A program made the translations under genes and the position numbers. A stretch of DNA of 39,052 nt from Streptosporangium minutum. GTDB lineage: Bacteria > Actinomycetota > Actinomycetes > Streptosporangiales > Streptosporangiaceae. Each line of letters begins with the position of its first letter. The first letter of the stretch is position 1. The DNA is taken from assembly GCF_002149035.1 (NCBI RefSeq), contig NZ_NGFP01000001.1, positions 68,832 to 107,883 on the forward strand, written 5' to 3'. The notes beneath the pieces are model-generated. The model had not been told where the DNA came from and did no database searches. It worked only from the letters and a program-made list of their open reading frames with translations. Positions 5,203-33,315 of the stretch are shown here, in pieces.

Positions 5203-5412
5203 ACCGAAGTACGCGCTGAAATCGCTCAGGCCGGTGACGTAACGACCGCACCTGTCGCAACGTTGCAGGCTGTCGGCCAGCAGTCCCACCCGGGCTCCGC
5301 GCATCGAGACGACCTGCCGTCTCTCTCGCACGCAGATGAAGCCGCGGATGCGGTTCAGGCTCTGGCTCTGCGGCCTGCGCGTGGGAGGCGCTGTACGACC
5401 AGTGGTTGTCGG
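5191..5412 (-). other. Possible remnant of a small zinc-ribbon-like reading frame
   Basis: On the minus strand about 70 codons are open after a TGA in the same frame. They read SLNRIRGFICVRERRQVVSM, then LQRCDRCGRYVTGLSDFSAY, and end with a TGA at 5191-5193. CDRCGRY resembles half of a zinc-binding knuckle. The only ATG leaves about 37 codons and has no clear ribosome binding site. The frame overlaps the end of the 1531-5202 gene by 12 bases, tail to tail. It may be a decayed gene or chance; the rest of this 262-base gap shows only the GAGGAGGT site of the next gene. Confidence 0.2.
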
Positions 5413-5464
5413 TGGTCACCGGTAGATTTCGTATGCATTTCGACTGCGAGGAGGTCCGGGTCTC

Positions 5465-12429: not shown

Positions 12430-15400
12430 GCGGCGCCGACGCGGGCGGGCAGCGATGGCTCGGGACCATGCTCGCGCTCTCCCGCCCGATCGGCATCACC
12501 ACTCTGGCTGCCGCGCTCAGCGTGGATCCAACGGCTGTCGTCGCGTTCGCACGTGGGCTTGCTCCCGGTGTCACCTTGGTGGATGGGGCAATCCAGTTTC
12601 GCGACGAGGACTTCGAGACGTACGTGCGGGACCGCGTCGATTCGGCGGATGTGATCGCGGCACATGATCGGCTCGCGGAGATGTTCCTGACCACACGGAG
12701 CAGCGACGCGGATGCGGCAGCGCATGTCGCTGACCACCTCGTCGAGGCGGGTCGGCTAGACGACGTGCTGACACTTGTGCTGAGTGAGGACTGGCCGGAG
12801 GCGATCCCCGATGGGTTCCGGCGCGCCCAGGTGCAGGGCCGACGGCTCGACCTGGCTGCACGCGCCGCCGCAACGATCGGCGGTGCCGCGGCCGCGGTTC
12901 GTGTGGCAGTCCGCGGGTGCAACACCGCGTCCCGGCTCGACACACTGTCGTCCCTGGTGAAATCCCACTTCGACCTGGTCATACGGCATACCGACATTGA
13001 TGACCTGCGCCGGCATGCACGGCGTCAGACCTCCGACGATGGGTGGCACGCGCCCACGCAGATGCGGGTGGCTGCTGTGTTGGCCCGTGACCCAGCCCGG
13101 CATGCCGATGCGCGTGCCGAACTGGATCGCGCCGATGCGTGGCTCCGCCGACGGAAGGCCGAGGGGGCGGAGAAAGCCCACGGCTGGAGCCTGCATACGC
13201 ACGACGTGGCGTCCGCTGCCGAGGCCCGATACAGGCTTGACGGGATGGAAGCGGCCGTTCGCGAACTATTGAGGTGGAAGTCCGCGAAGTCTGCGCCCGA
13301 CATGGCGGCGCCACTGGAGCCACCATTGAGGAGGAGAGCCGCGAAGTCCATGCCCGACATAGCGGCGGCACTGGCCGCACAGATCGCCGCCGAGGTCGGG
13401 CCGGGACCGGCCCAGGATGCCCTGCGTGCGCAGAATGTCCCAGCCGCGACACAGGCACCTTTCCTGGCATACGCCACCTCGCCCGCGGTTGCTCCCGACC
13501 GCGACTGGCTCGACGAGGTGATCGCCGCGGTTCTCGCCGAAGATCCAGGGAATGCGAAACTCTGGCACGATCGACTGATCTCCGTCGCCGCGCGACACGG
13601 CGACCGGCAGGCGGCTGCAGCGCTTGCCGAGCACTGGGCCCGCCTGCTGCCTCCTCACCGCTGGGCTTTCAACAACGGCAATGAGGCTGGTGTCACTACC
13701 CTCCGCTGCCATGCGGTCGCCGCCATACTCGGTGGAACCGAGATCACCATCGACGACCTGGTCCCACCGTCGCTGCAGCCGGAAGACAAGGACACCGGGA
13801 AGCAGACGTTTGACGATTCCCGCGCTCATGACCGGCGCGAGTGGGCCGAGATGGTTCAACCCCTGCTGACGGCAGCCCTGCTTGCCACCCGCTGTGCCAT
13901 TGGTGAGGCGGACCGTGATGAGGTCACCGCGTTCGTTGTCGCCGAGCTCGCCGAACGTACCGAGCAGGCCGGGCATCGTTGGTTCACCTTCGACACCTCC
14001 TACCGTGCATGGGCGGCGCTCGCCGCCGAGGCGATCGTCGATGCTGCCGCTGACCTCAGTCTGATCGGCCAGTTGGCCGACGCGGCCCCTGCGCTGCTGG
14101 GGAGCGCCGCGCCCACACTGTGGCTGAACCTGGCGGCTCGTGTCGCCATCCGCGGCGGACACACCGGCCTTGCCGTCGACCTGTGCGGGCGAGCTGCGGA
14201 GCATGTGCAGGCGAGCGCGTACCCGGCGGCGGAGCGACTCGAGTTGCTTGCCGACGCCGCCGACCTCGCCGACAAGTTCGCACCCGAGCTGGGCAGACAG
14301 CTGTTCCACCAGGCGGTCGATGCGGCGACCGGAATCAACGATGATGCCGCTCGCCTGCTATCGGTGTACGCCGACCTTGCCGACCGTGCGGTGATCAATG
14401 CGGCCGATCGGCCGAAGGTCGCTGCCCGGCTCGTCCATGCAGCGGAGACGGTCGCGTTGCACGTCTCCGCTGACGGAGTCGTCCCGTACGAGGTCATCGC
14501 CGGGGCCGCAGGGCGCCTCAGCGCCGGGGTCGCGCTGGGGGCCGTGAGCCGGTGGGACGACGAGGGACGAGTCCGGCTGTCCGAGACGCTGCCCCGGGCC
14601 CTGGTCGGGGCCGTTGAGGGAGGCGGAGTCCCGGGTGCCCAGGCGCTGAGGCTGGCCCACCTTGTCGAGGACGACAACGCCCGCCTGCAGTACCGCTTGG
14701 CCATCATCGACACACTGAGGAAAGACGCGTCAGGTACCGCCGACGCCCGAGTCGAGCTGAAGCGCACCGTTGACTGGATCCGCCGTGACGTGCCCGCCCG
14801 CGCCCAGCCCGCCTTGGCCACACAGCTCCTTGATTGGGCGGCAGGGTGCGGTCTCGGCGGGCCCATCAGGTCCGACCTGGAGCCGGTCGCACAGTTGGGC
14901 CTCAACGACTCTGACACGGACGAACGATGGCCTGGCCTGGACCTATCGGTGAGCGAACAACCCTCGGAGGTCAATCCGTCCGGCGCCAGCATGGCCACAC
15001 TCGCCGAGGATGTCGCGGAGTTCGCCAAAGCGGGCGTGTACGGCGAGCGGATGCGCGAGTACATCACCAGGGTGGCGTTGTCCGTCAGTCCCCAGGACCG
15101 AGTGGCCACGCTCACGGCGGTGGCCGGCCTGTGCCAGGCGGCCAATGTCCAGACCGTTCTCCCGGTTCTGGCTCATTGCCTCACACAATGGCGTAGCTGG
15201 CCCAGAGTCAAGGATTGGGCCGCCGCCGCGCTGCCGACGTTGCTGACCGGGCATCTGCAGGACCTCGCCTGGTCGCAGGACACCGACGCGCTGCTCAAAC
15301 AACTCCGTACGTTCGCCGATGACGACGCCATCCGGCGCGCTGTGCTCACCGCACTCCCTGATGCACGGCCTCACCTGACTCCGTTCGGCTGGCAGAACAT

Positions 15401-17120
15401 CGCCGCGCTCCTTGGCCGACTGTGTGATCGTGGCGGCGCCGCCGAAGCCGTGATCGCCCTGCTCCACGACCGCCTCCCCACCGCCGAAGACGGTGAAGCC
15501 GCCGCGGTAACTCCGCCCGCCGAACCGGTAGTCCTTCTACTGTGGAGCGCCTTCGGTCATCCTCGCCGGGCGATCCGTTGGCGTGCCGCCCACGCCGTGC
15601 GCGACCTCCTGAAGCACTCCACCCCCGCCGATGCCCGCCAGTTCGCCGGCAAGCTCGTCACCTGCCTGGACCGCACCGACGCCGGGCCGTTCCGAGATCC
15701 GACGCTGCTCTTCTACTACATGTCAGCTGCTACCGGACTGTTGGTCGCCCTGCAGCGCGTCGCCGCTGAACGCCCCAGCGTGCTCATCGCCCACCTGTCT
15801 GACTTTATCCAGCATGCGACCAACCGCGAGTTCCCGCACGTCCAAATCCGCGAACTCGCCCGTCAGACCGCCCTGGCGCTCGCCGGACCCACCGGCCCTG
15901 ACACCGACCTACTCCGGGTAGCGAACCAGCCCGCCACCTGCTCCATCCACCGCACAGACGGCAACAGAAGCGAGAACCGCCAGCTGGCCAACGGGCGCCG
16001 CTACCAGTTCGACGACATCGACACCATCCCCTACTGGTACAAGCCGCTCGCTCACGCGTTCAACCGGCCGATCCAGGAGATCGCCGACCGCGCTGAGCGC
16101 TGGATTATCGACAAGTGGGGGATGGCCAAAGACGACTGGTGGCGCGACGACCGCGAGCTACGCGACCGAAATTCCTACCGGCGGATGTCGCATCGCCACG
16201 GATCGATTCCCCCCGAGGAGAACCTGCGCCTGTACCTGGAGTACCACGCCATGATGGTCGTCGCGGGTGAACTCGTCGATGCTGGCCTGCCGATCCACAT
16301 CCCTCCATACGACGACGCGGAAGACCCGTGGTGGGATTGGCTGGCCCCGCACCTCCCCAGCAGCGTCAATGCCTGGGTTTCCGATCTCGGCCACCCGGTG
16401 CCGGCCGAACCCAGCCTGTTCGGTCACTTGCCGCCGCTCGATGATTGGGACACTCCCGCGGACCAGGACTACGATGACGCGCTCGGCCTGGTCGATGGGC
16501 GTGTCCCTGACAGGACCGTCGTCGCCGGCCACACTCATGTAAACCGGTCCGGCGCCTACGGCAAGATATCTATCTGGTCGGCGCTCGTCGCCCCTGAGCG
16601 CGCTGCCGACCTGCAACGGGCGCTCGCCGCGGCGGCCAATCCGACCGACTGGAAGCTCCCGCAAGAAGACGAGGACGAATTCGAGGTCGACCACGGCCCG
16701 TTCGTCCTGCGCGGCTGGCTCGCCGCCCCCCGCAGCGACCGCGACCGGCTGGACGAGCACGACCCGTATGCCTACGACCTGCACGCGCAGTGTCCTCTGC
16801 CCGGTCGCCTATTTCGTCAGATGACCGGCGCAGCCCCGGACGCGAAGGGGATCACCCTTCTCCTCGGCGACGGCGCCGAGATCGCACGCACCATCCAATG
16901 GACCGACCGCAGGACTGACGACGACACCAACGTTGCCACCTCCTCCGGCTACCGCCTCCATGTCGCGACAGAGCCGCTGCTGCGATTCCTCTCCAAGGCC
17001 GGAATGACCCTCATCGTGGAGGTCCAAATTGGACGACGCCGGAATTCCGCTAACAACTACCGGCTCCCCCGAAGCCGCGTCTACCTCATCACCCCTGACG
17101 GCCACATCACTAGCCGATGA
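12402..17120 (+). CDS. C-terminal fragment of the same frameshifted NTPase (helical sensor part)
   Basis: This frame continues the preceding fragment: PHPEPLFQMLLESALQ follows naturally after the NTPase part. ATG 12402 is only the first usable start and has no ribosome binding site, so it is probably not a real start. If one base were restored near 12370-12400 the whole protein would have about 2108 residues. The fragment (1572 aa) is Ala/Leu/Asp-rich with helix-like repeats up to about base 15950. A distinct C-terminal domain follows, with an aromatic, acidic segment (DPWWDWLAPHLP), then LLLGDGAEIARTIQW and MTLIVEVQIGRRR. By position the helical part would be the ligand-sensing region of an Avs-like protein. 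I know no family for the last domain. The gene is either inactivated, carries a sequencing error, or less likely is recoded. Confidence 0.75.
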   Translation: MLLESALQVSGADAGGQRWLGTMLALSRPIGITTLAAALSVDPTAVVAFARGLAPGVTLVDGAIQFRDEDFETYVRDRVDSADVIAAHDRLAEMFLTTRSSDADAAAHVADHLVEAGRLDDVLTLVLSEDWPEAIPDGFRRAQVQGRRLDLAARAAATIGGAAAAVRVAVRGCNTASRLDTLSSLVKSHFDLVIRHTDIDDLRRHARRQTSDDGWHAPTQMRVAAVLARDPARHADARAELDRADAWLRRRKAEGAEKAHGWSLHTHDVASAAEARYRLDGMEAAVRELLRWKSAKSAPDMAAPLEPPLRRRAAKSMPDIAAALAAQIAAEVGPGPAQDALRAQNVPAATQAPFLAYATSPAVAPDRDWLDEVIAAVLAEDPGNAKLWHDRLISVAARHGDRQAAAALAEHWARLLPPHRWAFNNGNEAGVTTLRCHAVAAILGGTEITIDDLVPPSLQPEDKDTGKQTFDDSRAHDRREWAEMVQPLLTAALLATRCAIGEADRDEVTAFVVAELAERTEQAGHRWFTFDTSYRAWAALAAEAIVDAAADLSLIGQLADAAPALLGSAAPTLWLNLAARVAIRGGHTGLAVDLCGRAAEHVQASAYPAAERLELLADAADLADKFAPELGRQLFHQAVDAATGINDDAARLLSVYADLADRAVINAADRPKVAARLVHAAETVALHVSADGVVPYEVIAGAAGRLSAGVALGAVSRWDDEGRVRLSETLPRALVGAVEGGGVPGAQALRLAHLVEDDNARLQYRLAIIDTLRKDASGTADARVELKRTVDWIRRDVPARAQPALATQLLDWAAGCGLGGPIRSDLEPVAQLGLNDSDTDERWPGLDLSVSEQPSEVNPSGASMATLAEDVAEFAKAGVYGERMREYITRVALSVSPQDRVATLTAVAGLCQAANVQTVLPVLAHCLTQWRSWPRVKDWAAAALPTLLTGHLQDLAWSQDTDALLKQLRTFADDDAIRRAVLTALPDARPHLTPFGWQNIAALLGRLCDRGGAAEAVIALLHDRLPTAEDGEAAAVTPPAEPVVLLLWSAFGHPRRAIRWRAAHAVRDLLKHSTPADARQFAGKLVTCLDRTDAGPFRDPTLLFYYMSAATGLLVALQRVAAERPSVLIAHLSDFIQHATNREFPHVQIRELARQTALALAGPTGPDTDLLRVANQPATCSIHRTDGNRSENRQLANGRRYQFDDIDTIPYWYKPLAHAFNRPIQEIADRAERWIIDKWGMAKDDWWRDDRELRDRNSYRRMSHRHGSIPPEENLRLYLEYHAMMVVAGELVDAGLPIHIPPYDDAEDPWWDWLAPHLPSSVNAWVSDLGHPVPAEPSLFGHLPPLDDWDTPADQDYDDALGLVDGRVPDRTVVAGHTHVNRSGAYGKISIWSALVAPERAADLQRALAAAANPTDWKLPQEDEDEFEVDHGPFVLRGWLAAPRSDRDRLDEHDPYAYDLHAQCPLPGRLFRQMTGAAPDAKGITLLLGDGAEIARTIQWTDRRTDDDTNVATSSGYRLHVATEPLLRFLSKAGMTLIVEVQIGRRRNSANNYRLPRSRVYLITPDGHITSR

Positions 17121-19048: not shown

Positions 19049-20074
19049 TTACGCCCCGTCCTCATACATGGGGTTCAACGACATCTGGTCCTTCGTATTT
19101 GACGCTTCACTCCTTTCCACATCGGCGGATTGTGTCCTTTCTTTCTCCACCTCAGCAATGATCTCCTCTGCTTCGCGCTGCTCCAATCCCCACCGGCGCA
19201 TCAGTGGGCGCCGACCGATGCGCTGCTTACCCTCGCCAAGGCTGTCGATGTAGCTGAGCCGCGCCGCTTCATGCCGGTCGATAGGCAGCACCGGTACCAC
19301 CCGTTCCACCTCGACCACGGTCTCCATGAGCTGGCACACGTGCTCTTGCGCCTTGACCTCGCCCAATGGTCGCCGGTTGTTGCGAACGATCCACATCAGT
19401 AGCTCGTACGCTCCCGCGAAAGCCAGCGGTGCCAGGGCACTGATCAGCCGCGATCCAAGTCCACCGGACCAGCCGTGCGCCACATTCGCCGCCAGTGTCA
19501 CCGCACCTCCCAGGGCGAGCGCCACCCACGCCAGCACTGGCACGCGAAGCCGACGACGCGAGCAATAAACCATCACCAGCGACGCCATGACGATCACACC
19601 GTCAGACATCGCCGGATACAGAATGGCCATGTCGTGCCGCTCACCCAAAGCGATCGCCAGACCGTAGAAGTGGTGGTACGAGACGTAGGCAGCCGCGCCG
19701 GCAGCCGCCAGCAGGACAACCACCGCAAAGCCCAGGATGACCCGGTCCCCAATCCGATCGCGATGAGTACGCTCGACCCAAGCCCCTTCGACCAGAACCA
19801 CCTCCTCGGCAATTTCTGGTGTCGAGGCGCTGCGCACGGCCTGGCTTCCGGGTTGATCAGATTGCTGGGATGCAGGAAGGAGTTCGGTGCTGCGATCACC
19901 GAGCTCCTGCCCCCTTACCACCGCTGCCCTGAGCGCAGTTGAGATCGTCTGCTGAGGATCCTGAACTGGCGGTTGCTGAGCTTCCCCGGCATGGGCGTGT
20001 GCCGCAAGGTAGGACCCAATCTCGTTGAGGTGGGTGTGGGCACCGCCCCCTCTCTGCGCGCCTATTCCGGACAT
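19049..20074 (-). CDS. DUF2637 (SpdB-like) membrane protein of a conjugative/integrative element
   Basis: The protein has 341 aa from ATG 20072-20074; GTG 20087-20089 would add five residues, and neither has a clear ribosome binding site. After a ~120-residue hydrophilic N-terminus come four membrane segments: VILGFAVVVLLAAAGAAAYV; ILYPAMSDGVIVMASLVMVY; VPVLAWVALALGGAVTLAAN; LISALAPLAFAGAYELLMWI. YHHFYGLAIALGE and PLAFAGAYELLMW are typical of DUF2637, found in SpdB-type plasmid-spread proteins of streptomycetes and relatives. The C-terminal part (SYIDSLGEGKQRIGRRPLMR, then WGLEQREAEEII) resembles a DNA-binding helix-turn-helix found in these proteins. The gene reads away from the attachment-site core just upstream and supports an integrative-element origin. 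Confidence 0.85.
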   Translation of the reverse strand: MSGIGAQRGGGAHTHLNEIGSYLAAHAHAGEAQQPPVQDPQQTISTALRAAVVRGQELGDRSTELLPASQQSDQPGSQAVRSASTPEIAEEVVLVEGAWVERTHRDRIGDRVILGFAVVVLLAAAGAAAYVSYHHFYGLAIALGERHDMAILYPAMSDGVIVMASLVMVYCSRRRLRVPVLAWVALALGGAVTLAANVAHGWSGGLGSRLISALAPLAFAGAYELLMWIVRNNRRPLGEVKAQEHVCQLMETVVEVERVVPVLPIDRHEAARLSYIDSLGEGKQRIGRRPLMRRWGLEQREAEEIIAEVEKERTQSADVERSEASNTKDQMSLNPMYEDGA

Positions 20075-20560
20075 GAGAGGTCCAGCCACGGAGCGTCGGT
20101 GCTGCTCAGGAGATGGGCGAAGGGTTCAAGTCCCCCCTCGGACACACTTGGTTCACCTATGAGGTGCTGGTCGGCTCTTGAGCTGGTCAGCACCTTTCTG
20201 GTTTCAAGGTGGCAGGTGAGCGTGAGGCCCGATCCGCGTAGATCCTCGTCTTGCGGGCGGTCTCCGCTTCGCCCGAGATCCTCACCATGCCGCCCAGCGC
20301 ACGCATCGTCTCGGGCGACCCGTCCCGGTCGAGCCGGCGTGAGCGCAGCGGAGCACGCCGGAGCCGCCGCTCCGCCTCCGCCTTCCCTGCCTGCTCTCCT
20401 CCTGGGTCCAGCCCGCGACCACCGCCGGATCGGCCCCGGCCTCCAGAGCCACCCGGTGCCGGGCCGGACTCTGGCCGGACTCGGCGACCTGCCGCCAGGC
20501 GACGGCAGGCGCCTCGGCCTCCGGAGGATCGACCCGCTGGGCGACGACGAGGGTGTCCAG
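20062..20560 (-). pseudogene. Decayed serine recombinase, C-terminal part
   Basis: Three minus-strand frames in succession give ARHRVALEAGADPAVVAGWT, then GKAEAERRLRR...MRALGGMVRI, then SGLTLTCHLETRKVL and VSEGGLEPFAHLL, ending with TAG at 20062-20064. The order (VAGWTxExQA...A, RALGGMVxxL, GLxLTYHPETRKVL) matches the C-terminal region of actinobacterial serine recombinases with a zinc ribbon. At least two frameshifts and the loss of the N-terminal catalytic domain make it non-functional. Its end VSEGGLEP is encoded antisense across the tRNA-Leu-like core, as is usual for integrases whose attP lies at the gene end. It overlaps the start of the DUF2637 gene. Family is moderately sure. Confidence 0.6.
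20122..20146 (+). other. Attachment-site core: 3' end of a tRNA-Leu gene
   Basis: The 25 bases begin GGGTTCAAGTCCCCCC and end CTCGGACACA. They equal the T-loop, the 3' T-stem strand and the acceptor strand (CTCGGAC plus discriminator A) that I remember for actinomycete tRNA-Leu genes starting GTCCGAG. Upstream the match ends: the 5' T-stem has only three of five pairs (AAGGG), and no anticodon or D arm exists, so this is not a tRNA gene. A lone tRNA 3' end is what integration into a tRNA leaves at the far end of an element. The intact tRNA should lie left of the window on the plus strand. Confidence 0.65.
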
Positions 20561-22793: not shown

Positions 22794-23666
22794 ATGAACT
22801 GGCAGCGTACGGTCAACAACGCCCTGGTCAGATTCACCGGATTCCAGCTTAACCGGGTAGGGAAAGCAGGACCCACGCCCGCCGCGGCCCCCGCCGGTGC
22901 GGAGAAGGCTCTTGTACGGCCGCCGGCCGACCCGGCGGCGGACCGGCTGCTGACCGCGCCGATCTTCATCCTCTCTCCGGTCAGGTCCGGCTCCACGCTG
23001 CTGCGGGCGGTGCTCAACGCCCACTCGATGCTGCACGCCCCGCACGAGCTGCACGTGCGCCGGTTGACCGTGGGCTTCGGCACCTCGCTGTCCGAGAAGG
23101 CGATGGACGCCCTCGGCCACAACCGGGCCGACCTGGAGCACCTGCTGTGGGACCGGGTGCTCCACCGGGAGCTGGTGCGCAGCGGTAAGTCCTTCGTCGT
23201 GGACAAGACCCCGGCCAACGCCTTCGCCTTCGAACGCATCGCCACCTGCTGGCCCGACGCCCGCTTCGTCTTCCTGCTGCGCCACCCCGCCTCCGTCGCG
23301 AGGTCCTGGCACGAGGCCGCCCCGGACCGGCGGAACGCGGAGGAGGCCGCCGCCGACGCCCTGCGCTACATGAAGGCCGTGCAGCGGGCCCGCCGCGCCC
23401 TCACCGGCCTGACGGTCCGCTACGAGGACCTGACCGGTGACCCGGAGACCGAGACCCGGCGCGTCTGCGACTTCCTCGACGTCCCGTGGGAACCCGGGAT
23501 GCTCTCCTACGGCGAGCAGGCGGTGATCCAGAAGGGCCTCGGCGACTGGAAGGACAAGATCCAGTCGGGGGTCGTGCAGCGAGGGCGTGACCTCCCGACG
23601 TCCGAGCAGATCCCCGAGATCCTGCGGCCGATCTCCGTCACCTGGGGTTACCTGGCGGGCTCATGA
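22794..23666 (+). CDS. PAPS-dependent sulfotransferase family protein
   Basis: The product is 290 aa. FILSPVRSGSTLLRAVLNAH (about residues 58-77) is the 5'-phosphosulfate-binding loop, and FVFLLRHPASVARSWHEA (about 160-177) is the 3'-phosphate-binding region of sulfotransferases. VRYEDLTGDPETETRRVCDF is the usual late motif. These enzymes move a sulfuryl group from PAPS to a hydroxyl or amine, here possibly of a sugar or lipid. The first ~40 residues are not membrane-spanning. No ribosome binding site stands before ATG 22794, so the mRNA may be nearly leaderless. Its stop overlaps the start of the glycosyltransferase by 4 bases (ATGA), so both probably act on the same glycan or glycolipid. 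Substrate unknown. Confidence 0.85.
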   Translation: MNWQRTVNNALVRFTGFQLNRVGKAGPTPAAAPAGAEKALVRPPADPAADRLLTAPIFILSPVRSGSTLLRAVLNAHSMLHAPHELHVRRLTVGFGTSLSEKAMDALGHNRADLEHLLWDRVLHRELVRSGKSFVVDKTPANAFAFERIATCWPDARFVFLLRHPASVARSWHEAAPDRRNAEEAAADALRYMKAVQRARRALTGLTVRYEDLTGDPETETRRVCDFLDVPWEPGMLSYGEQAVIQKGLGDWKDKIQSGVVQRGRDLPTSEQIPEILRPISVTWGYLAGS

Positions 23667-24829
23667 GGATCCGCTACATGCTCCTGCACGCCTACGGGAT
23701 GGGCGGCACGATCCGCACCGTGGTCAACCAGGCCAACGCGATGGCCGCCGCCGGGCACGACGTCGAGATCGTCAGCGCGGTACGGCGCCGCGACACCCCC
23801 AGGTTCCGCATCGACCCGCGCGTCGAGGTCACCGCGCTGACGGACCAGCGCGGCGGCGTGCGCGCCGACTCGCTGGGCCGCAGGGTCTGGCGGCGGGTCC
23901 GCGGGAAGATCGTTCCCCATGGCGAGTTCGCGGCGTCCTACTTCACCGAGCGGGTGGAGCGGGCCGTCATCGACTACGTCTCCGCGCTGGAGGACGGCAT
24001 CCTGGTCACCACCCGCCCGGCACTGAACCTCATCTCCGCCCGCCGTACTCCCGCGAGCGTGGTGCGGATCGCGCAGGAGCACATGAACCTGGCCACCCAC
24101 CCCGAAAGCGTCCGCAGGGAGATCGCCCGCCACTACGGCCGCCTGGACGCGGTCGCGGTGCTCACCGGGACCGACCGCAAGGACTACCAGGCGCTGCTGC
24201 CCGGCACCCCGGTCGTGCGGATCCCCAACGCGGTCCACACCCTCGACCAGACGCCGTCGCGACAGGAGAACCGGCTCGTGATCGCCGCCGGGCGCCTCGT
24301 CACCCAGAAGGGGTTCGACCTGCTCATCCCGGCGTTCGAACAGGTCGTGCGCCACCATCCGGACTGGCGGCTGCGCATCTACGGCACCGGCCCGAAGAAG
24401 GCCGAGCTGCGCGCGCTCATCAAGGAGCACCGTCTCGCCGACAACGTCACCCTGATGGGGCGCAGCGACCGGCTGGACGAGGAACTGGCCCAGGCCTCCC
24501 TGTACGTGCTCAGCTCCCGGTTCGAGGGGTTGCCGATGGTGATGATCGAGGCGATGTCCCACGCGCTGCCGGTCGTCGCCTTCGACTGCCCGACCGGTCC
24601 GCGCGACGTCATCACCGAGGAGGTCGACGGGCTGCTCGTGCCGCCCCGGGACGTCGACGCGCTGGCGGCGGCCGTCAACCGCCTCATCGACGATCGGGAA
24701 CTGCGGCGGCGGATGGGCGCCGCGGCCGTGCGGACCGCGCGGGACTACGCCCCCGAGGCCGTCACCCCGCTGTGGGAGAGGTTGTTCACCGAACTCCTGC
24801 GGGCCGAGCCCCCCACCGCGGAGCGCTGA
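23663..24829 (+). CDS. Family 4 glycosyltransferase
   Basis: The product is 388 aa with a GT-B layout. The N-terminal part has GGTIRTVVNQANAMAAAGHD, the glycine-rich acceptor-side loop of GT4 enzymes. The C-terminal part has VIAAGRLVTQKGFDLLIPAF, LRIYGTGPKKAELRALI and SRFEGLPMVMIEAMSHALPV, the E288-x7-E296 motif that binds the nucleotide-sugar donor. It is a retaining transferase on the cytoplasmic face; donor and acceptor unknown. The start overlaps the sulfotransferase stop in an ATGA, giving a two-gene unit. The EGLPMVMIEAMS...DCPTGPRDVI form is frequent in actinobacterial GT4 enzymes of wall or secondary-metabolite glycosylation. A short GC-rich hairpin follows the stop. Confidence 0.9.
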   Translation: MRIRYMLLHAYGMGGTIRTVVNQANAMAAAGHDVEIVSAVRRRDTPRFRIDPRVEVTALTDQRGGVRADSLGRRVWRRVRGKIVPHGEFAASYFTERVERAVIDYVSALEDGILVTTRPALNLISARRTPASVVRIAQEHMNLATHPESVRREIARHYGRLDAVAVLTGTDRKDYQALLPGTPVVRIPNAVHTLDQTPSRQENRLVIAAGRLVTQKGFDLLIPAFEQVVRHHPDWRLRIYGTGPKKAELRALIKEHRLADNVTLMGRSDRLDEELAQASLYVLSSRFEGLPMVMIEAMSHALPVVAFDCPTGPRDVITEEVDGLLVPPRDVDALAAAVNRLIDDRELRRRMGAAAVRTARDYAPEAVTPLWERLFTELLRAEPPTAER

Positions 24830-25148: not shown

Positions 25149-26366
25149 ATGCCGCTTGCCCTGCTCGCGCTCACGTTGAGTTCTTTTGGGATCGGGACCA
25201 CCGAATTCGTGGTCATGGGACTGCTTCCCAACGTCGCCGGCGATCTGTCGGTCAGCATCACGACAGCCGGCTTCCTCATCTCCGGATACGCGCTGGGCGT
25301 CGTCGTGGGGGGACCGCTGCTGGTCGCGGCCGGCATACGCATGCCCCGCAAGAGCATGCTGCTCATCCTGATGTTGATCTTCATCTTCGGCAACCTGCTG
25401 TCGGCCCTGGCGCCCGGCTACGCGCTGCTGATGCTGGGACGCGTCACGACCGCGATCTGCCACGGCGCCTTCCTCGGAGTCGCCTCCGTCGTGGCCGCCG
25501 ACCTGGTCGACGACAGCAGGAAGGCCCGCGCGATCGCGATGGTCTTCACCGGGGGTGCCGCCGCCAACGTCGTCGGGGCGCCCCTGGGAACCTGGGTCGG
25601 GCAGAACTTCGGGTGGCGTGTCACCTTCTGGATGCTCGTCGGCATCGGGCTGGTCGGCCTCGCCGGCATCGCCCGGCTGATCCCCAGGCAGCCGTCCCGG
25701 GCGGACGCCCGGGTGGGCCGGGAGCTGGCGGTCTTCCGCCGGCCGCAGGTGGGGCTCGCGCTGGCCATGACGGCGCTGAGCCTCGGCGCGCTGTTCGCCT
25801 CCTTCACCTACGTCGCGCCGATGCTGACCGAGGTGACCGGCTACTCGGAGGAGGCGCTCACCCCCCTGCTCGCCCTCTTCGGCATCGGGCTGGTCGTGGG
25901 CAACACGCTCGGCGGCCGTTACGCGGACCGCGCGCTGATCCCCACCCTCGCCACCGCGCTGGCCGCGCTCACGGCCGTGCTGGCCGTGTTCACCTTCACC
26001 GCCGGCTACCAGGTGCCGGCGGCGATCACCTTCGCGCTGCTGGGCGTCGCCGGGTTCGCCACCGTCCCGGGGCTGATGACCCGGGTGATCAGCAAGGCCG
26101 AGGGGGCGCCGACCCTCGCGGCGGTGGTCACGGTCTCCGCCTCCAACGTCGGCATCGCCCTGGGCGCCTACCTCGGAGGCCTGAGCATCGACGCCGACCT
26201 CGGTTACACCTCGCCCAACTGGATCGGCGCGATCATGGCGGCCGCCGCGCTCGCGCTGACCGTCGCGTCCGGCGCGCTGGACAAGCGCGGCGGGCGACGG
26301 GGTGACCTCGTCACGGAAGGCGGCGAGCCGGTCCCGGCGTCCTCCCAGGGCGACGGCTCCCGGTAG
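25149..26366 (+). CDS. MFS efflux transporter, 12-TM DHA1 type
   Basis: The product is 405 aa from ATG 25149, with AAGGAG nine bases upstream. It opens with LLALTLSSFGIGTTEFVVMG, as in AraJ/CmlR/Cmx-like drug and sugar efflux proteins. The loop after TM2 is short (AAGIRMPRKSML). GRVTTAICHGAFLGVASVVA followed by AADLVDDSRKARAIAMVFTG matches the TM4-TM5 motif of drug:H+ antiporters. Twelve hydrophobic segments can be counted. It lies in front of the putative biosynthetic genes and could export their product or give self-resistance; that link is positional only. The stop codon lies within a set of imperfect repeats. Confidence 0.9.
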   Translation: MPLALLALTLSSFGIGTTEFVVMGLLPNVAGDLSVSITTAGFLISGYALGVVVGGPLLVAAGIRMPRKSMLLILMLIFIFGNLLSALAPGYALLMLGRVTTAICHGAFLGVASVVAADLVDDSRKARAIAMVFTGGAAANVVGAPLGTWVGQNFGWRVTFWMLVGIGLVGLAGIARLIPRQPSRADARVGRELAVFRRPQVGLALAMTALSLGALFASFTYVAPMLTEVTGYSEEALTPLLALFGIGLVVGNTLGGRYADRALIPTLATALAALTAVLAVFTFTAGYQVPAAITFALLGVAGFATVPGLMTRVISKAEGAPTLAAVVTVSASNVGIALGAYLGGLSIDADLGYTSPNWIGAIMAAAALALTVASGALDKRGGRRGDLVTEGGEPVPASSQGDGSR

Positions 26367-26678: not shown

Positions 26679-27881
26679 ATGCTCACAAAAGTCTCCACCC
26701 GGCCCCACGTCTTCGAAACCATCGAGAACAGGCTCCGGGAGCTGAAAAGCAACGGCCTGTACCGGCATTACCTCCCCACCGCGCACATGGCGGCCAGTCC
26801 GGGCCAGACGCTGCGCATGGGGGAAGAGGTCCAGGTGTGGTGCAGTAACGATTATCTCGGCCTGAGCCAGCACCCGGATCTCATCAGGGCGCAGATCGAG
26901 TCGACCGCGCTGCACGGCACCAGCATGGGCGGCTCGCGCAACATCGGCGGCACGAGCACCACGCACGTCGCGCTGGAGTCCGAGCTGGCCGGCTGGCACG
27001 GCAAGGAGCGCGCGCTCATCTTCTCCAGCGGCTACGTGGCCAACTTCGAGACGCTCAGCGTGCTGCTGTCGGCGGTTCCGGACATGGTGGTCCTCTCCGA
27101 CGAGAACAACCACCGCTCCCTGATCGAGGGGATCCGCCGAGCGAGCTGCGAAAAACGGATATTTCCACATAACGACCTGGTCGAGCTCGAACGCTGCCTG
27201 GCCGAGTACGACGGGTCGCGGCCCAAGATGATCGTGTTCGAGTCGGTGTACTCGATGGACGCCGACGCGTCCCCGATCAGCGCGATATGCGACCTGGCGC
27301 AGAAGTACAACGCCCTGACCTACCTCGACGAGACACACGCCATCGGGGTCAAGGGCCCGACCGGCGCGGGGATCTGCGAGGAGATCGGGGAGACCCGGCC
27401 GACCTTCGTCCAGGGCGTCTTCGGCAAGGCCATCGGGACGGTCGGCGGATACGTCGCGGGGCCCGACGCGGCCCTGGACTACGTGCGCTCCTACGCGCCC
27501 GGCTTCATCTTCACGACCTCCCTTCCGCAGGCGTGCATGGACGCCACGCTGAAGGGCCTCGAACTCGTACGGCACGGCACCGACCTGCGCCGGGCGCTGA
27601 CCGACAACTCGCTCCGGATGAAGGCCGCCCTGCGGTCGGCGGACATCCCGTTCATCGACGGGGAGCACCACATCATCCCGGTGACGGTGCCCGGCGGCGA
27701 CCGGGTCAGGAAGGTGGCCGACCTCCTCCTGGAGGACCACCTCATCTACGTCCAGCCGATCAACTTCCCGTCCGTCCCCCTCGGGACGGAGCGGCTGCGC
27801 GTCACCGTCGCCCCGTACCGGACAGCCGAACAGATCGAGCACTTCGCATACGCCCTGGAATCGTGCCTCGCCCGCGCGTGA
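26679..27881 (+). CDS. Alpha-oxoamine synthase, 5-aminolevulinate-synthase-like
   Basis: The product is 400 aa with AAGGA five bases before ATG 26679. It is a PLP enzyme of fold type I that condenses an amino acid (glycine in ALAS) with an acyl-CoA and releases CO2. WCSNDYLGLSQHPD, GGSRNIGGTSTTHVALE, ENNHRSLIEG (H145), FESVYSMDADASPI, YLDETHAIG (D217, H220) and FGKAIGTVGGYVAG (PLP lysine K250) are all present. The D/H/K spacing fits ALAS better than AONS or KBL. The usual Thr of GGTRN is Ser here, a position near the acyl-CoA, so the acyl donor may differ from succinyl-CoA. In actinomycetes such extra ALAS genes often serve natural-product pathways (for example C5N units), but the acyl-CoA ligase and amide synthetase of that route are not visible here. 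Confidence 0.85.
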   Translation: MLTKVSTRPHVFETIENRLRELKSNGLYRHYLPTAHMAASPGQTLRMGEEVQVWCSNDYLGLSQHPDLIRAQIESTALHGTSMGGSRNIGGTSTTHVALESELAGWHGKERALIFSSGYVANFETLSVLLSAVPDMVVLSDENNHRSLIEGIRRASCEKRIFPHNDLVELERCLAEYDGSRPKMIVFESVYSMDADASPISAICDLAQKYNALTYLDETHAIGVKGPTGAGICEEIGETRPTFVQGVFGKAIGTVGGYVAGPDAALDYVRSYAPGFIFTTSLPQACMDATLKGLELVRHGTDLRRALTDNSLRMKAALRSADIPFIDGEHHIIPVTVPGGDRVRKVADLLLEDHLIYVQPINFPSVPLGTERLRVTVAPYRTAEQIEHFAYALESCLARA

Positions 27882-27896
27882 ATCAAGGAGACGGCA

Positions 27897-28736
27897 GTGG
27901 ACAAGATCGACCTCATCCCCTCCATCGGCACCGAACTGACCGGCGTCACCTATGAGGACCTGCGGAAGGACGACGTTCTCGACGAGTTCGTCGACACTCT
28001 CCACCAGCGCGAACTGGTGATCATCCGCGGGATCGAGCTGACGCCGGAGCAGCACGTGGACCTGGCGGCCCGCATCGGGAAGCCGATCCCCTTCGTGCTG
28101 GAGCAGTACCGGTACCCGGAGCTGCCGGAGATCATGATCTCCTCCAACGAGGTGCGGGACAACAAGTCCATCGGCGTGGCCCGGGTCGGCAACTTCTGGC
28201 ACCAGGACTCGTCCTTCGTGGCGAAGCCCGCCGAGTACACCATGCTGCACGGTGTGAACGTCCCGCAGACCAGCGGCCACACCCTGTTCGCCAGCGCCGT
28301 CGACGTCTACGACCGCCTGCCCGGCGACTGGAAGGAGAAGATCGACGGCCGCAAGGCGTGGCACACCGTGGTCAAGCGCCTGCGCATCCGCAGCGAGCAC
28401 GTGGGGCTGTCGACGGCCGAGTACAAGGCCTGGATCGAGGAGAGGCACCCGAAGGTCGAGCACCCGCTGGTACGGCGGGACCCCTTCAGCAAGAGGAGCT
28501 ACCTGTACGGCGCCCCCGAGTACCTGGACGCGGTGCAGGGCTTCGACGCCAACGAGAACGAGGCCTTCTTCACCCTGCTCGACAGCCTCATCCAGGACCC
28601 GGAGCACGTCTACACCCACCGCTGGACCCCCAAGGACCTCGTGGTGTGGAAGACCGCCACGACCCTGCACGCGGCGACCGACGTCGAACCCGGCGTCTCG
28701 CGGACCGTGCACCGAGTCAGCATCGAAGCCGAGTAG
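27897..28736 (+). CDS. TauD/TfdA-type Fe(II)/2-oxoglutarate dioxygenase
   Basis: The product is 279 aa; GTG 27897 has AAGGAG seven bases upstream. The metal ligands are visible: NFWHQDSSF (H102, D104) and LHAATD (H258), followed by SRTVHRV with R269 or R273 to hold 2-oxoglutarate. LVIIRGIELTPEQHVDLAAR and IGKPIPFVLEQYRYPELPEI are the usual N-terminal TauD motifs. Such enzymes hydroxylate or desaturate small molecules such as amino acids in natural-product pathways. The gene starts 15 bases after the oxoamine synthase and ends 2 bases before the KAS III-like gene, so the three are surely co-transcribed. Substrate unknown, perhaps the aminoketone made by the upstream enzyme. Confidence 0.9.
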   Translation: MDKIDLIPSIGTELTGVTYEDLRKDDVLDEFVDTLHQRELVIIRGIELTPEQHVDLAARIGKPIPFVLEQYRYPELPEIMISSNEVRDNKSIGVARVGNFWHQDSSFVAKPAEYTMLHGVNVPQTSGHTLFASAVDVYDRLPGDWKEKIDGRKAWHTVVKRLRIRSEHVGLSTAEYKAWIEERHPKVEHPLVRRDPFSKRSYLYGAPEYLDAVQGFDANENEAFFTLLDSLIQDPEHVYTHRWTPKDLVVWKTATTLHAATDVEPGVSRTVHRVSIEAE

Positions 28737-28738
28737 CC

Positions 28739-29710
28739 GTGGGCGGAATAGCCGGCCTGGAGGTGGCCTTCCCGGCTTCGCGCGTCAGCGCGCAGCACAT
28801 GTCCGCCCTGTCGGGCGTCCCGGTCCCCGACATCCTGAAGATCACCCATACCGGGGACTTCCCGGTCCTCGGCCCGGGCGAGCAGTCATGGGAGCTGACG
28901 CTCGAGGCGGCCAGAGCGGTCCTGAAGCGCACGCAGGTGGAGCCCGCCGCCATCCGGCAGGTGATATTCGCCGGCTCCGGCGAGTGGGACGTCCCGTTCT
29001 GGTCACCGGCGGCCAGAGTGGCCGCCGAGCTCGGCGTCGAGCGCGCCCACTGCTTCGAGATCGCCAACTTCTGCAACGCCGGGATGACGGCGATCCAGGT
29101 CGGACTGGACCGGATCGCGGCGGGCGGCGCCGGGTACGCGCTGGTGCTCATCGGTGACCGTCTGGGCACGATGGTCGACTACGGCGATCCCGCCTCGAAG
29201 GCGCTGTTCAACCTGGGAGACGCCGCCGCGGCGGTCCTCCTGGCGCGCGACGGCTACGCGTTCGAGGTGCTGCACTCGGCCATGCGGACCGATCCGAGCT
29301 GGTCGGACTACTACGTCGGCGAGCACCGGCCCGACCGGGTCGTGATCCGCCGTGCCGGGCACCGCGGCGGTCTCGCCGCGGCCTATGTGAAGAACTTCGC
29401 CTCGCTCATCGGCGAGACGCTGGGCGCGCTCGGCAGGGAGGTGCCGGACGTGGCCTTCTTCCTGATCAACCAGGGTGACCGTGCCATGCACGAGCGGCTC
29501 CTGCGGGAGACCGGCATCCCGGCGGACCGCAGCGTCTTCAACTACGACCGGCTGGGTCACATGGGCGGGGCGGACACCATGATCGCGCTCCGCGGGCTGA
29601 TGGACGACAACAGGCTGCGCCCCGGCGACCTGGTCCTGCTCGCCACCAGCGCCATGGGCTTCAGCTGGGGCATCACGGCCCTGGAGTACCAGCCGCACAG
29701 TCAGGTGTGA
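28739..29710 (+). CDS. KAS III-like enzyme with altered active site (C112, N244, H274)
   Basis: The product is 323 aa from GTG 28739, two bases after the preceding stop; the ribosome binding site is weak, so translation is probably coupled. It opens with GIAGLEVAFPASRVSAQHM, the thiolase-fold start of FabH-like proteins. IANFCNAGMTA places Cys at residue 112, as in E. coli FabH. Where FabH has HQAN with His244, this protein has NQGD (N244). Where FabH has GN with Asn274, it has LGHMGGADT (H274). So His and Asn of the triad have changed places. Such proteins condense or transfer acyl groups; altered KAS III homologues in natural-product clusters can act as acyltransferases (CerJ is one). Its activity is therefore open: C-C condensation, acyl transfer or other. 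Confidence 0.85.
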   Translation: MGGIAGLEVAFPASRVSAQHMSALSGVPVPDILKITHTGDFPVLGPGEQSWELTLEAARAVLKRTQVEPAAIRQVIFAGSGEWDVPFWSPAARVAAELGVERAHCFEIANFCNAGMTAIQVGLDRIAAGGAGYALVLIGDRLGTMVDYGDPASKALFNLGDAAAAVLLARDGYAFEVLHSAMRTDPSWSDYYVGEHRPDRVVIRRAGHRGGLAAAYVKNFASLIGETLGALGREVPDVAFFLINQGDRAMHERLLRETGIPADRSVFNYDRLGHMGGADTMIALRGLMDDNRLRPGDLVLLATSAMGFSWGITALEYQPHSQV

Positions 29711-29765: not shown

Positions 29766-29779
29766 GAGAAAGGTTGGAC

Positions 29780-30571
29780 ATGCGACACGATCCCTATGGT
29801 GAAGGCGTCCTGAGCAAGGACATCCCGACCGAACTGCGACGGCTCCAGCTGCTGGAGAACGCCCTGGACCCGCTGAGCATCGCGGCCATCGAGAAACTCC
29901 CCCTCGGCTCCACCCCGCGATGCCTGGACATGGCGTCGGGGGCGGGTTCCATGTCCTACTGGCTCGCCGACCGCTACCCGGGCGGGAGCGTGGTGTCGGC
30001 GGACATCGACCCGCGCTACCTCGACCGGGAGCGTGCGCCGAACCTGACGGTGCGCACCTTCGACATCCGCGAGGAGGATTTCCCCCAGGGCTCCTTCGAC
30101 CTCATACATGCCCGCTCCGTGCTCAAGCACCTGCCCGAGCGCGAGGAGGTGCTGGCCCGTTTCGCCGACTGGCTGGCGCCGGGCGGATGGCTGGCCATCG
30201 TGGACGGCTACTGGTTCCCCTCCGACGACACGGCCCATCCGGAGTGGGGCGGGGTCCTGCGGGCGATCGTCGAGCAGATGAACTCGCAGGGCGGCGACAT
30301 GCGCTGGACCCGGCGCCTGCCCGGACTCGTCGCCCGCCTGGGGCTCACGGACGTCAGCGTGCGGCTGACGCCCTCGCTCGCGGGGTGGGAGGGGTGGGGT
30401 GAGCAGCTCCACGAGTGGATCCGCCCGACGATCCGGCAGACGGGGCCGACCCTGGTGCGCAAGGGCTATGTCACCGCGGAGGAGGTCGAGCGGTTCCTGG
30501 AGGCCGAGGACGGCCCGCACATGGCCGAGTGGTTCGGCGTGGTGGCGTCGGTCGTGGGCCGCGTGCCGTGA
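29780..30571 (+). CDS. Class I SAM-dependent methyltransferase
   Basis: The product is 263 aa from ATG 29780, with AAAGG six bases upstream (TTG 29774 lies inside the spacing and is less likely). RCLDMASGAGSMSYWLADRY (about residues 47-66) is the SAM-binding motif I, with VVSADIDPRYLD as the acidic loop at the end of strand 2. FDLIHARSVLKHLPEREEVL and WLAPGGWLAIVDGYWF are motifs II/III of small-molecule methyltransferases. It is cytoplasmic and modifies O, N or C of a small substrate that cannot be named. The stop overlaps the GTG of the next gene (GTGA), so both are translated together. It belongs to the oxoamine synthase gene set. Confidence 0.85.
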   Translation: MRHDPYGEGVLSKDIPTELRRLQLLENALDPLSIAAIEKLPLGSTPRCLDMASGAGSMSYWLADRYPGGSVVSADIDPRYLDRERAPNLTVRTFDIREEDFPQGSFDLIHARSVLKHLPEREEVLARFADWLAPGGWLAIVDGYWFPSDDTAHPEWGGVLRAIVEQMNSQGGDMRWTRRLPGLVARLGLTDVSVRLTPSLAGWEGWGEQLHEWIRPTIRQTGPTLVRKGYVTAEEVERFLEAEDGPHMAEWFGVVASVVGRVP

Positions 30572-31407
30572 CGGCCCCGCAGGAGACGGTCCGGCGGCTG
30601 GGCTATGAGGACTTCGCCGCCTGCCTCGCCCTGGCGCAGGACCGCGGCTGGCCCGCCGAGTACCGCGCGTGGGATCTGCTGTTCGCCTTCGGCGAGGTGT
30701 ACGGGATCGACGATCCCGGCGGAGGGCTGGCCGCGGTGATCGCGCTGGTCCGGTACGGCGACCGGCTGGCCAACCTCGGCGGCCTGCTGGTCGCGCACCG
30801 GCACGGCCGGCGGGGTCTCGGCGGGCTGCTGATGAGATACGCGACGGAACGCGCCGGGACCGCGAGCGTCTGGCTGACCGCGACCGAGTACGGCCGGCAG
30901 ATGTACGAGGGCCTCGGCTTCCGGGCGACCGGCACGTGCACCAGGTACGCCGGGCACCTGCGGCCGGGCGATCAGCCGGGGCGGTGGTCGCGGGAGGCGG
31001 AGCCGTCCGACCTTCCGGAGATCATCGCCCTGGACGCCGAGGTCTTCGGTGCCCGCCGTACCGAGGTGGTCGCCTGCCTGTTCTCGGTCGCCGAGCAGAT
31101 CCGGCTGGTCGGAGGGCCGGCGGGCATCCGCGGGTTCGCGGGGGTCTGGCGCGGGGTCGACGGTCCCGTCGTCGGGCCGGTGATCGCCGAGGACTCGGAC
31201 ACCGCGGCGGCCCTGCTGTCCGGCCTGGCCCCGGCGATCGAGGGTCCGGTACGGATCGACCTCTACGGCCACCGGCCGAAGCTGCGGGCCTGGTTGGAGG
31301 AGCACGGCCTCCGGGATGCGGGCGGCACGACGGTCATGGTCTACGGCGACGACCCTCCCGGCGACCGCGCCCGGCTGTTCGCACCGGTGACGAGGGCGAT
31401 CGGCTGA
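30568..31407 (+). CDS. GNAT acetyltransferase with second GNAT-like domain
   Basis: The product is 279 aa from GTG 30568, overlapping the methyltransferase stop by 4 bases (GTGA). In the first half LANLGGLLVAHRHGRRGLGG followed by LLMRYA is the beta4-alpha3 region with the R/H-x-x-R/G-x-G acetyl-CoA loop, and YEGLGFRATGTCTRYAG is the C-terminal GNAT strand pair. The second half (from about residue 140: EIIALDAEVFGARRTEVVAC, later VRIDLYGHRPKLRAWLEEHG) matches the layout of two-domain GNATs of the YitH kind. It could acylate an amine of the pathway product or give self-resistance. Substrate not known. It is the last plus-strand gene of the set. Confidence 0.8.
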   Translation: MTAPQETVRRLGYEDFAACLALAQDRGWPAEYRAWDLLFAFGEVYGIDDPGGGLAAVIALVRYGDRLANLGGLLVAHRHGRRGLGGLLMRYATERAGTASVWLTATEYGRQMYEGLGFRATGTCTRYAGHLRPGDQPGRWSREAEPSDLPEIIALDAEVFGARRTEVVACLFSVAEQIRLVGGPAGIRGFAGVWRGVDGPVVGPVIAEDSDTAAALLSGLAPAIEGPVRIDLYGHRPKLRAWLEEHGLRDAGGTTVMVYGDDPPGDRARLFAPVTRAIG

Positions 31408-31527: not shown

Positions 31528-31612
31528 GCGCGTCGCAGAGGTCAGCGCGTCACGGGGGGCAGCGCGTCACGGGGGGCAGCGCGTCGCGGAGGTCAGCGCG
31601 TCACGGGGGGCT
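31528..31612 (+). repeat. Five tandem 17-bp repeats (minisatellite)
   Basis: Units start at 31528, 31545, 31562, 31579 and 31596. Two forms occur: GCGCGTCACGGGGGGCA (units 2, 3 and, with a last T, 5) and GCGCGTCGC(A/G)GAGGTCA (units 1 and 4). There is no spacer, so this is not a CRISPR array. The last unit and a few bases before it lie within the coding end of the minus-strand regulator; its last codons (PPVTR, TGA) are made of repeat sequence. The rest of the 31408-31592 gap has no gene. Confidence 0.85.
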
Positions 31613-32879
31613 GGGACAGGAGGCTCTCCATCCGGCCGGCGAGAGCCCGGACGCGAGGGGCCGCGCCCGCGTGCCGCCCGAGCTCGCCGAGTGTCTCCTG
31701 CAGCGCGACGCGGATCATGTTGATGAGCTTTTCGGGCTTCAGGTCGAAGACGGGCCCGACCGCCCCGGCCGCCTCGTCGACCTCTCCATACCGCAGGTGG
31801 GCGCGGAAGGCGTCTATGCGGGTGAGGGCCTCCACGCCGTAGAAGCGCCGGTTCGGCGCGAGCGCCTCGAAGTGGTCGAAGAAGCCGCAGAACCCCTGCA
31901 GCGCCCGGTCCGGCTGGTTCAGCGCGAGGTAGGTGGCGCCGACGAGATAGGACTGCCTGTCCTTCTGCAGCACAAAAAGGCCGCCCTCACGCGCGGGGAC
32001 GTCGCGTCGCACGTCCATCCAGCCGGATATCGCGTGCTGGGCCTCCTTCTCCTGCCCGATGGCGGCCCACGAGCGGGCCCGCAGGAGCTTGAGGAAGGCG
32101 TCGAGGCCGTCGTCCGCCCCGTACGTCAGCCCCTCGGCGGTGCGCTGGGCCGCCTCCATGTAGTCGCCCATCCAGAAGGCCTGCCTGGCCTGCGTGAGGC
32201 GGACCCAGCGCCGCGCCTCATGGTGGTCGGCCAGCTCGGCCAGCTCCCACGCGGCCGAGGCGTGGTTCTGGGCGGCCCTCGGGTCGCCGAGGTCGTCGGC
32301 CATCCACGCGAGCAGCGCGCAGCTCTTCGCCCCGAGTGAGAGCAGTTCCCGCTTCTGGGAGGGCCGCTGGGGCCCCGCCAGGGACGTGGCGATGCGGTCG
32401 CGCAGGAGAACCGCCCGGTGGATGAGCGAGCTCGGCGGCACGTGGAAGTACGAGACGGAGATGGCCGTGAGCTCGCTGTCCACCCGTTCCAGGGCGGCCT
32501 CGTCCATATTGGTCACCGAGACGCGCCTGGCCAGCCTGATCGAATCGCAGGAATCCCTGATCAAAGGCGTGAGATCGGAATGGTCCGGGGAAGCGCCCGG
32601 AGGGTCGCCGGAAGGCCCGATCACCCGGGAGCCGAGGCTTGACATGAATCGGTCAGGCCAGATCATGCTGACGTCGATCGTCTCGCCGAGACGTTCGGAC
32701 AGGACTTTGGCCACCGCGTGAGGTATGTCGCGGCGCGGGAAAGCCCCTCTGAGCCAGTGATAGGGCGCCTTCGGGCTGACGCCCTCGCTGCCGCGAACAT
32801 GGTTGATCTCTCGCGCGAGTTGCTCAGGCGACCAGCCCAATCGGTCCAGGAAGCCTTGGAGCTGCGTGGTAGCGCACAC
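31593..32879 (-). CDS. Transcriptional regulator with N-terminal HTH and TPR-like C-terminus
   Basis: The frame is open from 32966, but GTG 32877-32879 has AGGAGGAGG eight bases upstream and is the better start (428 aa). Residues 1-70 (LQGFLDRLGWSPEQLAREIN, then KAPYHWLRGAFPRRDIPHAV) look like an XRE-type helix-turn-helix. The rest is helical with TPR-like units (AAWELAELADHHEARRWVRL, DYMEAAQRTAEGLTYGADDG, YLALNQPDRALQGFCGFFDH). This build is common for actinobacterial regulators beside biosynthetic genes; the TPR part may bind a ligand or partner. It is convergent with the GNAT gene and divergent from the epoxide-hydrolase-like gene, so it may control either. Its 3' end has been taken over by the 17-bp repeat. 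Confidence 0.85.
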   Translation of the reverse strand: MCATTQLQGFLDRLGWSPEQLAREINHVRGSEGVSPKAPYHWLRGAFPRRDIPHAVAKVLSERLGETIDVSMIWPDRFMSSLGSRVIGPSGDPPGASPDHSDLTPLIRDSCDSIRLARRVSVTNMDEAALERVDSELTAISVSYFHVPPSSLIHRAVLLRDRIATSLAGPQRPSQKRELLSLGAKSCALLAWMADDLGDPRAAQNHASAAWELAELADHHEARRWVRLTQARQAFWMGDYMEAAQRTAEGLTYGADDGLDAFLKLLRARSWAAIGQEKEAQHAISGWMDVRRDVPAREGGLFVLQKDRQSYLVGATYLALNQPDRALQGFCGFFDHFEALAPNRRFYGVEALTRIDAFRAHLRYGEVDEAAGAVGPVFDLKPEKLINMIRVALQETLGELGRHAGAAPRVRALAGRMESLLSQPPVTR

Positions 32880-33315
32880 GAAAGACGCCTCCTCCTGCGC
32901 TGCTGCCGGATTCACCCACCGCTGCCGCACCGTGAGCTTAATCCACATCCAGCATACCGGACACAACCCACCGGTTTAGTATAGATTACTCGATCTTGAT
33001 ACGGATCGACACCCGCTCTCTTTCCCGCCGGGCACGCACGGTTCCGGAAAAGCTCCCGAGGTGCAAGGCGGCGCCACCGGCGGACATCCGGGACCCCGCG
33101 GACGCCGTCCGGCCCCTCGCCGGCCACCGCTCCGGCCAGACGCCTCCGCGCCGGACATCTCTCCGGCCCCGCGACGGCCGGAGGGGCGCCGCCCCGGCCG
33201 CCACCGCCGCCCAGACAGGTCGCGGAACACCGCCCGGACGGGCTCAAAGTTGTGGAATGAAGTATTCCGTTCTGATAGACTGAAGTCAGCACAGACTGCT
33301 TCGAAGGGAACATTT
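32880..33315 (+). promoter_or_regulatory. Divergent promoter region with a 15-bp palindrome
   Basis: The region between the regulator and the epoxide-hydrolase-like gene holds no gene; the Pro/Arg-rich plus frame over 33061-33300 is typical of chance GC-rich frames. GGAAT-GAAGT-ATTCC at 33254-33268 is a perfect palindrome, followed by TGATAGACT (TAGACT at 33276-33281), a fair -10 box for the plus gene. For the minus strand, TATACT near 32983 could be a -10 box. GAAGGGA at 33303-33308 is the ribosome binding site of the plus gene. Confidence 0.4.

Follow-up and report, generated by a model that had tools for sequence, protein, structure and literature searches.

A KAS III-like protein of Streptosporangium minutum with a predicted Cys-His-Asp triad of the type described for tailoring acyltransferases

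Escherichia coli FabH provides the residue numbering for ketoacyl-ACP synthase III (KAS III) proteins used here, and its Cys-His-Asn triad consists of Cys112, His244 and Asn274. Relatives with other residue sets are described in two papers on which we draw. According to the first, condensing homologues carry Cys(Ser)-His-His, the triad of CerJ is Cys-His-Asp and its first-His position is occupied by Val, and Pau29 (paulomycin) combines Asn at the first-His position with Ser-His-Asp, its role being the authors' prediction (PMC4425429). The second assigns to ChlB3 a triad of Cys113, His296 and Asp301 in which His296 directly contacts Cys113. There, ChlB3 is described as shuttling 6-methylsalicylate from carrier protein to carrier protein, acyl transfer is abolished in its C113A variant, and malonyl transfer is lost in C116 and H295 mutants of CerJ (PMC9573744).

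The window, by which we mean the whole 39,052-nucleotide stretch of S. minutum DNA analysed, encodes a KAS III-like protein of 323 aa with a GTG start (28739..29710, forward strand), a predicted Cys-His-Asp acyltransferase. Counted from GTG 28739, the translated ORF carries Cys112, the putative nucleophile (codon 29072..29074), Asn244 (29468..29470) and His274 (29558..29560), all on the forward strand and all where the first-pass annotation had placed them. In a phmmer comparison with E. coli FabH, N244 fell on H244 and H274 on N274 within an ungapped stretch, and Cys112 aligns with FabH C112 and ChlB3 C113, bearing out the further statement that these residues occupy the C112/H244/N274 columns of FabH with matching length and frame. 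A FabH-type C112-H244-N274 triad is not present in the window protein, which has Asn244 and His274 instead. The second motif reads GHMGGAD, in which Asp279 (29573..29575, forward strand) sits five residues after His274; the two residues are the equivalents of ChlB3 D301 and H296, respectively. Asp279 had been overlooked, and taking it into account changes the meaning of the observation.

Both the N-terminal and the C-terminal KAS III domains of the protein score above their Pfam cut-offs, and its best sequence matches overall are FabH enzymes. Against the NCBIfam model PRK06840 it reaches 166 bits, far under the cut-off of 315. An AlphaFold2 model, for which the 17-row alignment described below was the input, has a mean pLDDT of 90.3 and shows the KAS III (thiolase) fold: the top Foldseek matches are FabH structures with TM-scores of 0.87 to 0.89 (by query length), and PqsD ranks just below them. 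CerJ and ChlB3 are absent from the best 50 of the 1428 Foldseek matches to this model.

A scan of genome contigs yielded 16 orthologue loci with 57 to 70% identity over near full length, which together with the window make up the close set of 17 rows. Cys112, His274 and Asp279 are invariant in all 17, and Asn244 is found in 16, the exception being a Thr in locus L014; homologues sharing N244 and H274, a search for which had been proposed, were thus found. The orthologues begin at the same residue as the window protein, supporting its start. Since these residues are constant across the orthologues, the pattern is a fixed family trait, neither chance nor a sequencing slip. A sequencing error was ruled out by the orthologues, and an artefact of sequencing or alignment has a negligible probability in our estimate: the same residues recur in independent genomes of several genera and on a Burkholderia plasmid, although in one relative, L048, column 244 moves by one residue between alignments. 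The KAS of L042, which is from the window's genus, is identical in the part compared to its counterpart in Streptosporangium saharense (L004).

Another His at the 244 position had been named as evidence that would speak against the assignment. Residues 241-250 of the window protein contain no His, a check that is limited by its orthologues, in which position 245 is His in 11 of the 17 rows (Gln in the window and five others) and His251 is invariant. His208 is likewise invariant. The nearby His245 and His251 are also a point against reading Cys112, His274 and Asp279 as the working residues. KAS III-like subunits can be non-catalytic or altered, PqsB being an example, and the conserved residues would then be structural. 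We know of no measured activity for any close family member, which leaves room for such a subunit, but all 17 rows keep C112, H274 and D279, and a similar partner does not occur in the window: searched against its own genome, the KAS gave a single further match at E <= 1e-5, which lies on a different contig. We consider a PqsB-like role very improbable.

For a wider comparison, 95 homologue rows were aligned. They came from a window-based scan, from searches with the 17-row alignment (A1) and P0001, from an NF005308 search and from three plasmid or window references, with long ORFs trimmed to their last 420 residues. These rows are a non-random sample of KAS III proteins, collected with this or related families; compared over their last 250 residues, 83 of them are distinct, and near-identical rows may persist among these. 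His274 occurs in 43 of the 83 distinct homologues, every one of which also has Asp279 (43/43). Asn274 occurs in the other 40, none of which has Asp279 (0/40); they carry Ser (38), Thr (1) or Gly (1) instead. Column 244 of the 43 His274/Asp279 rows holds Asn in 22, Ile in 9, Thr in 5, Leu in 5, Met in one and His in one, L044 being the sole His row. The Met belongs to L048, which is shifted by one column at 244 in the 95-row alignment and in register in a 52-row MAFFT alignment and a profile comparison. Because column 244 is variable, columns 244 and 274 did not simply exchange residues. As read from these columns, the trait that moved is the His to 274 plus the Asp at 279, and the residue left at 244 varies. 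The proposed His/Asn swap therefore stands in so far as FabH His244 is lost and a His is found at 274; a true exchange it is not. The idea that Asn244 stands in for FabH N274 was rejected on the same ground, the variability of column 244 among His274/Asp279 homologues.

Thirteen rows of the alignment (L050-L054, L065 and L086-L092) have Ser where the nucleophile stands, followed by either Ile or Leu in column 244, His245 and a GHMSxxDP motif that holds His274 and Asp279. These KAS III-like ORFs come from the window's phylum and are possibly Ser-His-Asp enzymes, as predicted from their residues. The Ser-bearing rows placed in the tree described below form one clade with Halobaculum L040, a Cys-bearing relative.

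The link to ChlB3 came through L048, a 344-aa protein from a genome of the window's genus, whose best solved structure is ChlB3 (7eqi). In that structure-match alignment, ChlB3 shows an Asn in the H244 region and a second motif of GHLGASD. The 52-row MAFFT alignment set C113, the Asn, H296 and D301 of ChlB3 in register with C112, N244, H274 and D279 of the window protein; in DpsC, the N244 column was occupied by the first His. When the 17-row alignment was compared with L048 by profile (hhalign), N, H and D were again in register (probability 98.1, 24% identity, 253 columns). The statement that no such swap had been described does not hold, as ChlB3 has the same C/N/H/D set and the Asn plus His-Asp of Pau29 is in print; with ChlB3, CerJ and Pau29 as precedents, we rejected an undescribed catalytic swap.

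We built a tree from 49 hand-picked rows of the 95, together with the PDB chains of ChlB3, DpsC and 7vyu (52 rows). A branch supported at 100/99 set the His274/Asp279 rows apart from the rest, and the same grouping was recovered at 100/99 in a second tree in which the columns of residues 110-114, 241-251 and 271-282, and thus the trait itself, were removed and the long-branch L044 was left out. In this second tree, ChlB3, DpsC, 7vyu and L048 form the sister group of the window family at 97/91, a grouping in which branches are long and the ChlB3/DpsC side has four rows; the two branches that connect the window family with the ChlB3 group measure 1.3 and 1.95 changes per site. The sister relation is probable, and the long branches might create an artefact. 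At E <= 1e-100, the family profile matched 9 genomes in a sample of 250 from the host's family; in a sample of 396 from the phylum, the host's own genome was the one match.

The position of DpsC bears on whether the window protein could be a true condensing enzyme, forming C-C bonds by a Claisen reaction, decarboxylative or not, with His274 replacing His244. The sister group contains DpsC, which shares the GHxGxxD motif and for which a condensing reaction is described, and the top sequence and fold matches of the window protein are FabH enzymes. One sentence of the ChlB3 paper also connects Claisen-like condensation with the His and Asp residues of KS III enzymes (PMC9573744). However, DpsC-type enzymes retain the first His, and the window protein and its close orthologues do not; among the 43 distinct H274/D279 rows, a His in column 244 is confined to L044. 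Exchange of FabH His244 for Asn would moreover take away a residue on which decarboxylative C-C bond formation is described to depend, and its absence argues against decarboxylative condensation. We rate a condensing role as improbable.

The reading we favour, with a probability of about 0.8, is that the window protein has the KAS III fold and acts as a tailoring acyltransferase, its Cys112-His274-Asp279 triad being of the CerJ/ChlB3/Pau29 type. The residues, their conservation and their co-variation are observed directly, as is the common clade with ChlB3 and DpsC in the tree; to judge by sequence, the functional set is most likely Cys112-His274-Asp279. The 24% identity to the ChlB3-like L048 and the long branches joining the two groups count against an assignment to the ChlB3 type. 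By homology with ChlB3 and CerJ, Asp279 would orient His274, and His274 would activate Cys112 to attack an acyl-CoA or acyl-ACP. His274 would then take a proton from the acceptor, be it an amine, a hydroxyl or a carrier thiol, and the acyl group would pass to this acceptor. The suggestion of the first-pass annotation that a rearranged triad could perform acyl transfer in place of the FabH reaction gains support, as a possibility, from this ChlB3- and CerJ-like Cys-His-Asp arrangement. One special case within the acyltransferase reading is a shuttle that takes an acyl group from CoA or an ACP to an ACP. ChlB3, with the same C/N/H/D set, transfers 6-methylsalicylate between carrier proteins in the published description, but no carrier-protein domain was matched in the 21 window ORFs scanned with Pfam, some of them maybe in wrong frames, out of 160 ORFs of at least 80 aa. 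A shuttle is unlikely, though its chance is appreciable.

The KAS gene lies in a small, little-studied gene set of antibiotic type and is the third of a trio on the forward strand. It begins 2 bases past the stop codon of a gene for a TauD/TfdA-type dioxygenase (27897..28736), of the Fe/2-oxoglutarate type by family, which is preceded by the gene for a 5-aminolevulinate synthase (ALAS) homologue (26679..27881; NCBIfam equivalog, 445 bits versus a cut-off of 338.55). The ALAS-TauD-KAS trio was complete in 18 of the 19 loci compared (the 16 orthologue loci and three more), the exception being L014, which has no ALAS or TauD match within 10 kb. A Burkholderia stagnalis plasmid has the trio too, annotated as hemA, TauD/TfdA and ketoacyl-ACP synthase III family protein. 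Downstream in the window lie genes for a SAM-dependent methyltransferase (29774..30571, forward strand) and a GNAT acetyltransferase-like protein (30415..31407, forward strand, start probably farther downstream), both of which also adjoin the trio in L003, L007 and L023. Upstream is an MFS exporter gene (25149..26366, forward strand), Cmx/CmrA-related and under the family cut-off, which is present in L003 and L007 as well.

Other trio loci have further genes after the KAS. When the downstream genes of seven trio loci were compared (L003, L004, L005, L006, L007, L008 and L039), a protein with weak similarity to ATP-grasp enzymes was found after the KAS in five (L004, L005, L006, L008 and L039), followed in four of these five by a PaaK-like adenylating protein; L003 and L007 have neither. 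The window yielded no match to the ATP-grasp-like or PaaK-like proteins of the other trio loci. Examples of the weakly ATP-grasp-like and PaaK-like proteins that come after the KAS in several loci are encoded at L009 10957-12168 and L039 14951-16123 and by the genes that follow these. The PaaK-like proteins have an N-terminal extension of some 250 residues or more, and the ATP-grasp-like and PaaK-like proteins scanned reach no Pfam or NCBIfam cut-off.

More distant family members (L095-L098) showed no ALAS or TauD match in the 9.3 to 14 kb available for each, L095 ending at a contig end. Neighbours of these distant KAS relatives include an amino-acid adenylation enzyme in L095, FkbH and luciferase-like proteins in L096 and, in L097, an FAD monooxygenase. 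A methyltransferase with 40% identity to that of the window is encoded in both L097 and L098. The short stretch available for L085, a further distant member, showed neither an ALAS nor a TauD gene. A single fixed pathway role was rejected, given the lack of ALAS/TauD matches in L095-L098 and L014; standing beside varied tailoring genes, the family looks like a tailoring enzyme of several kinds of pathway.

Elsewhere in the window, a 457-aa protein without a Pfam match (31593-32966, reverse strand) shares 46% identity with one encoded next to the L007 trio; relative to the KAS, the L007 gene points the other way. Adjacent sulfotransferase and GT4 glycosyltransferase genes lie upstream of the MFS exporter (22794-24829). 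The first half of the window contains a DUF772 transposase domain (442-1221, reverse strand), a NACHT/AAA protein (10759-12429, forward strand) and a DUF2637 protein (19049-20089, reverse strand). Pfam gave no match for three long ORFs at 1480-17120, maybe in wrong frames, nor for four of eight further ORFs.

The trio partners offer some indication of an acceptor. In ALAS, the Thr of the GGTRNI motif is a substrate-site residue. The window ALAS homologue has GGSRNI, with Ser for the Thr of GGTRNI in two solved ALAS enzymes. A motif search of 20 trio loci, including the window, found Ser in 15 and Thr in none; the motif was unmatched in five, among them the window, whose Ser was read by eye. 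The amino acid substrate of the trio ALAS may be other than glycine. The TauD-like protein has 6l86, a taurine catabolism dioxygenase, and ScoE as its nearest solved structures, and scored 138 bits against the NCBIfam ScoE model, whose cut-off is 400. Judging from the operon context, the acceptor is probably an aminoketone that the ALAS homologue makes and the TauD-like enzyme oxidises, and the KAS may acylate it on N or O as part of a specialised-metabolite pathway. A more specific proposal, which we put forward tentatively and with some doubt, assigns acyl transfer in an as yet undescribed pathway to the KAS III-like protein: an altered ALAS would make an alpha-aminoketone, a dioxygenase distant from ScoE would oxidise it and the KAS III-like protein would form an N-amide. 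If true, this would extend the Cys-His-Asp KAS III type to N-acylation, in a gene set that occurs in several actinobacterial genera and a Burkholderia.

The only paper found near the theme of the trio is on limocrocin, where ALAS makes the C5N unit. We found no description of the ALAS-TauD-KAS trio in the literature searched, which covered few of the subscription journals where one may have been published. Alaremycin is another ALA-like product.

What was supposed to be a new catalytic triad is removed by this analysis: the triad itself is already known, and the window protein adds to a described acyltransferase branch. For annotation, position 279 of KAS III-like proteins should be read alongside position 274, with His274 plus Asp279 indicating the acyltransferase/DpsC branch and a missing His244 pointing to acyl transfer. 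The analysis also draws attention to the conserved ALAS-TauD-KAS trio, for whose product no description was found in the literature searched.

Among the known systems, FabH resembles the window protein in fold, length and Cys112 and differs in its C-H-N triad. DpsC shares the GHxGxxD motif and belongs to the nearest tree group, but it retains the first His, has Ser as its nucleophile and is described as a condensing enzyme. Pau29 likewise has Asn for the first His and keeps the His-Asp pair, with a Ser nucleophile where the window protein has Cys. CerJ (3s3l), which forms malonyl esters, has the same Cys-His-Asp triad, its residues being taken from the papers; it carries Val rather than Asn at the first-His position and is absent from our tree. 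ChlB3 (7eqi, chlorothricin) matches the window protein in its Cys, Asn, His and Asp at +5 on a KAS III fold, whereas its gene context is another, it sits on a separate long branch, and its relative L048 is 24% identical to the window protein.
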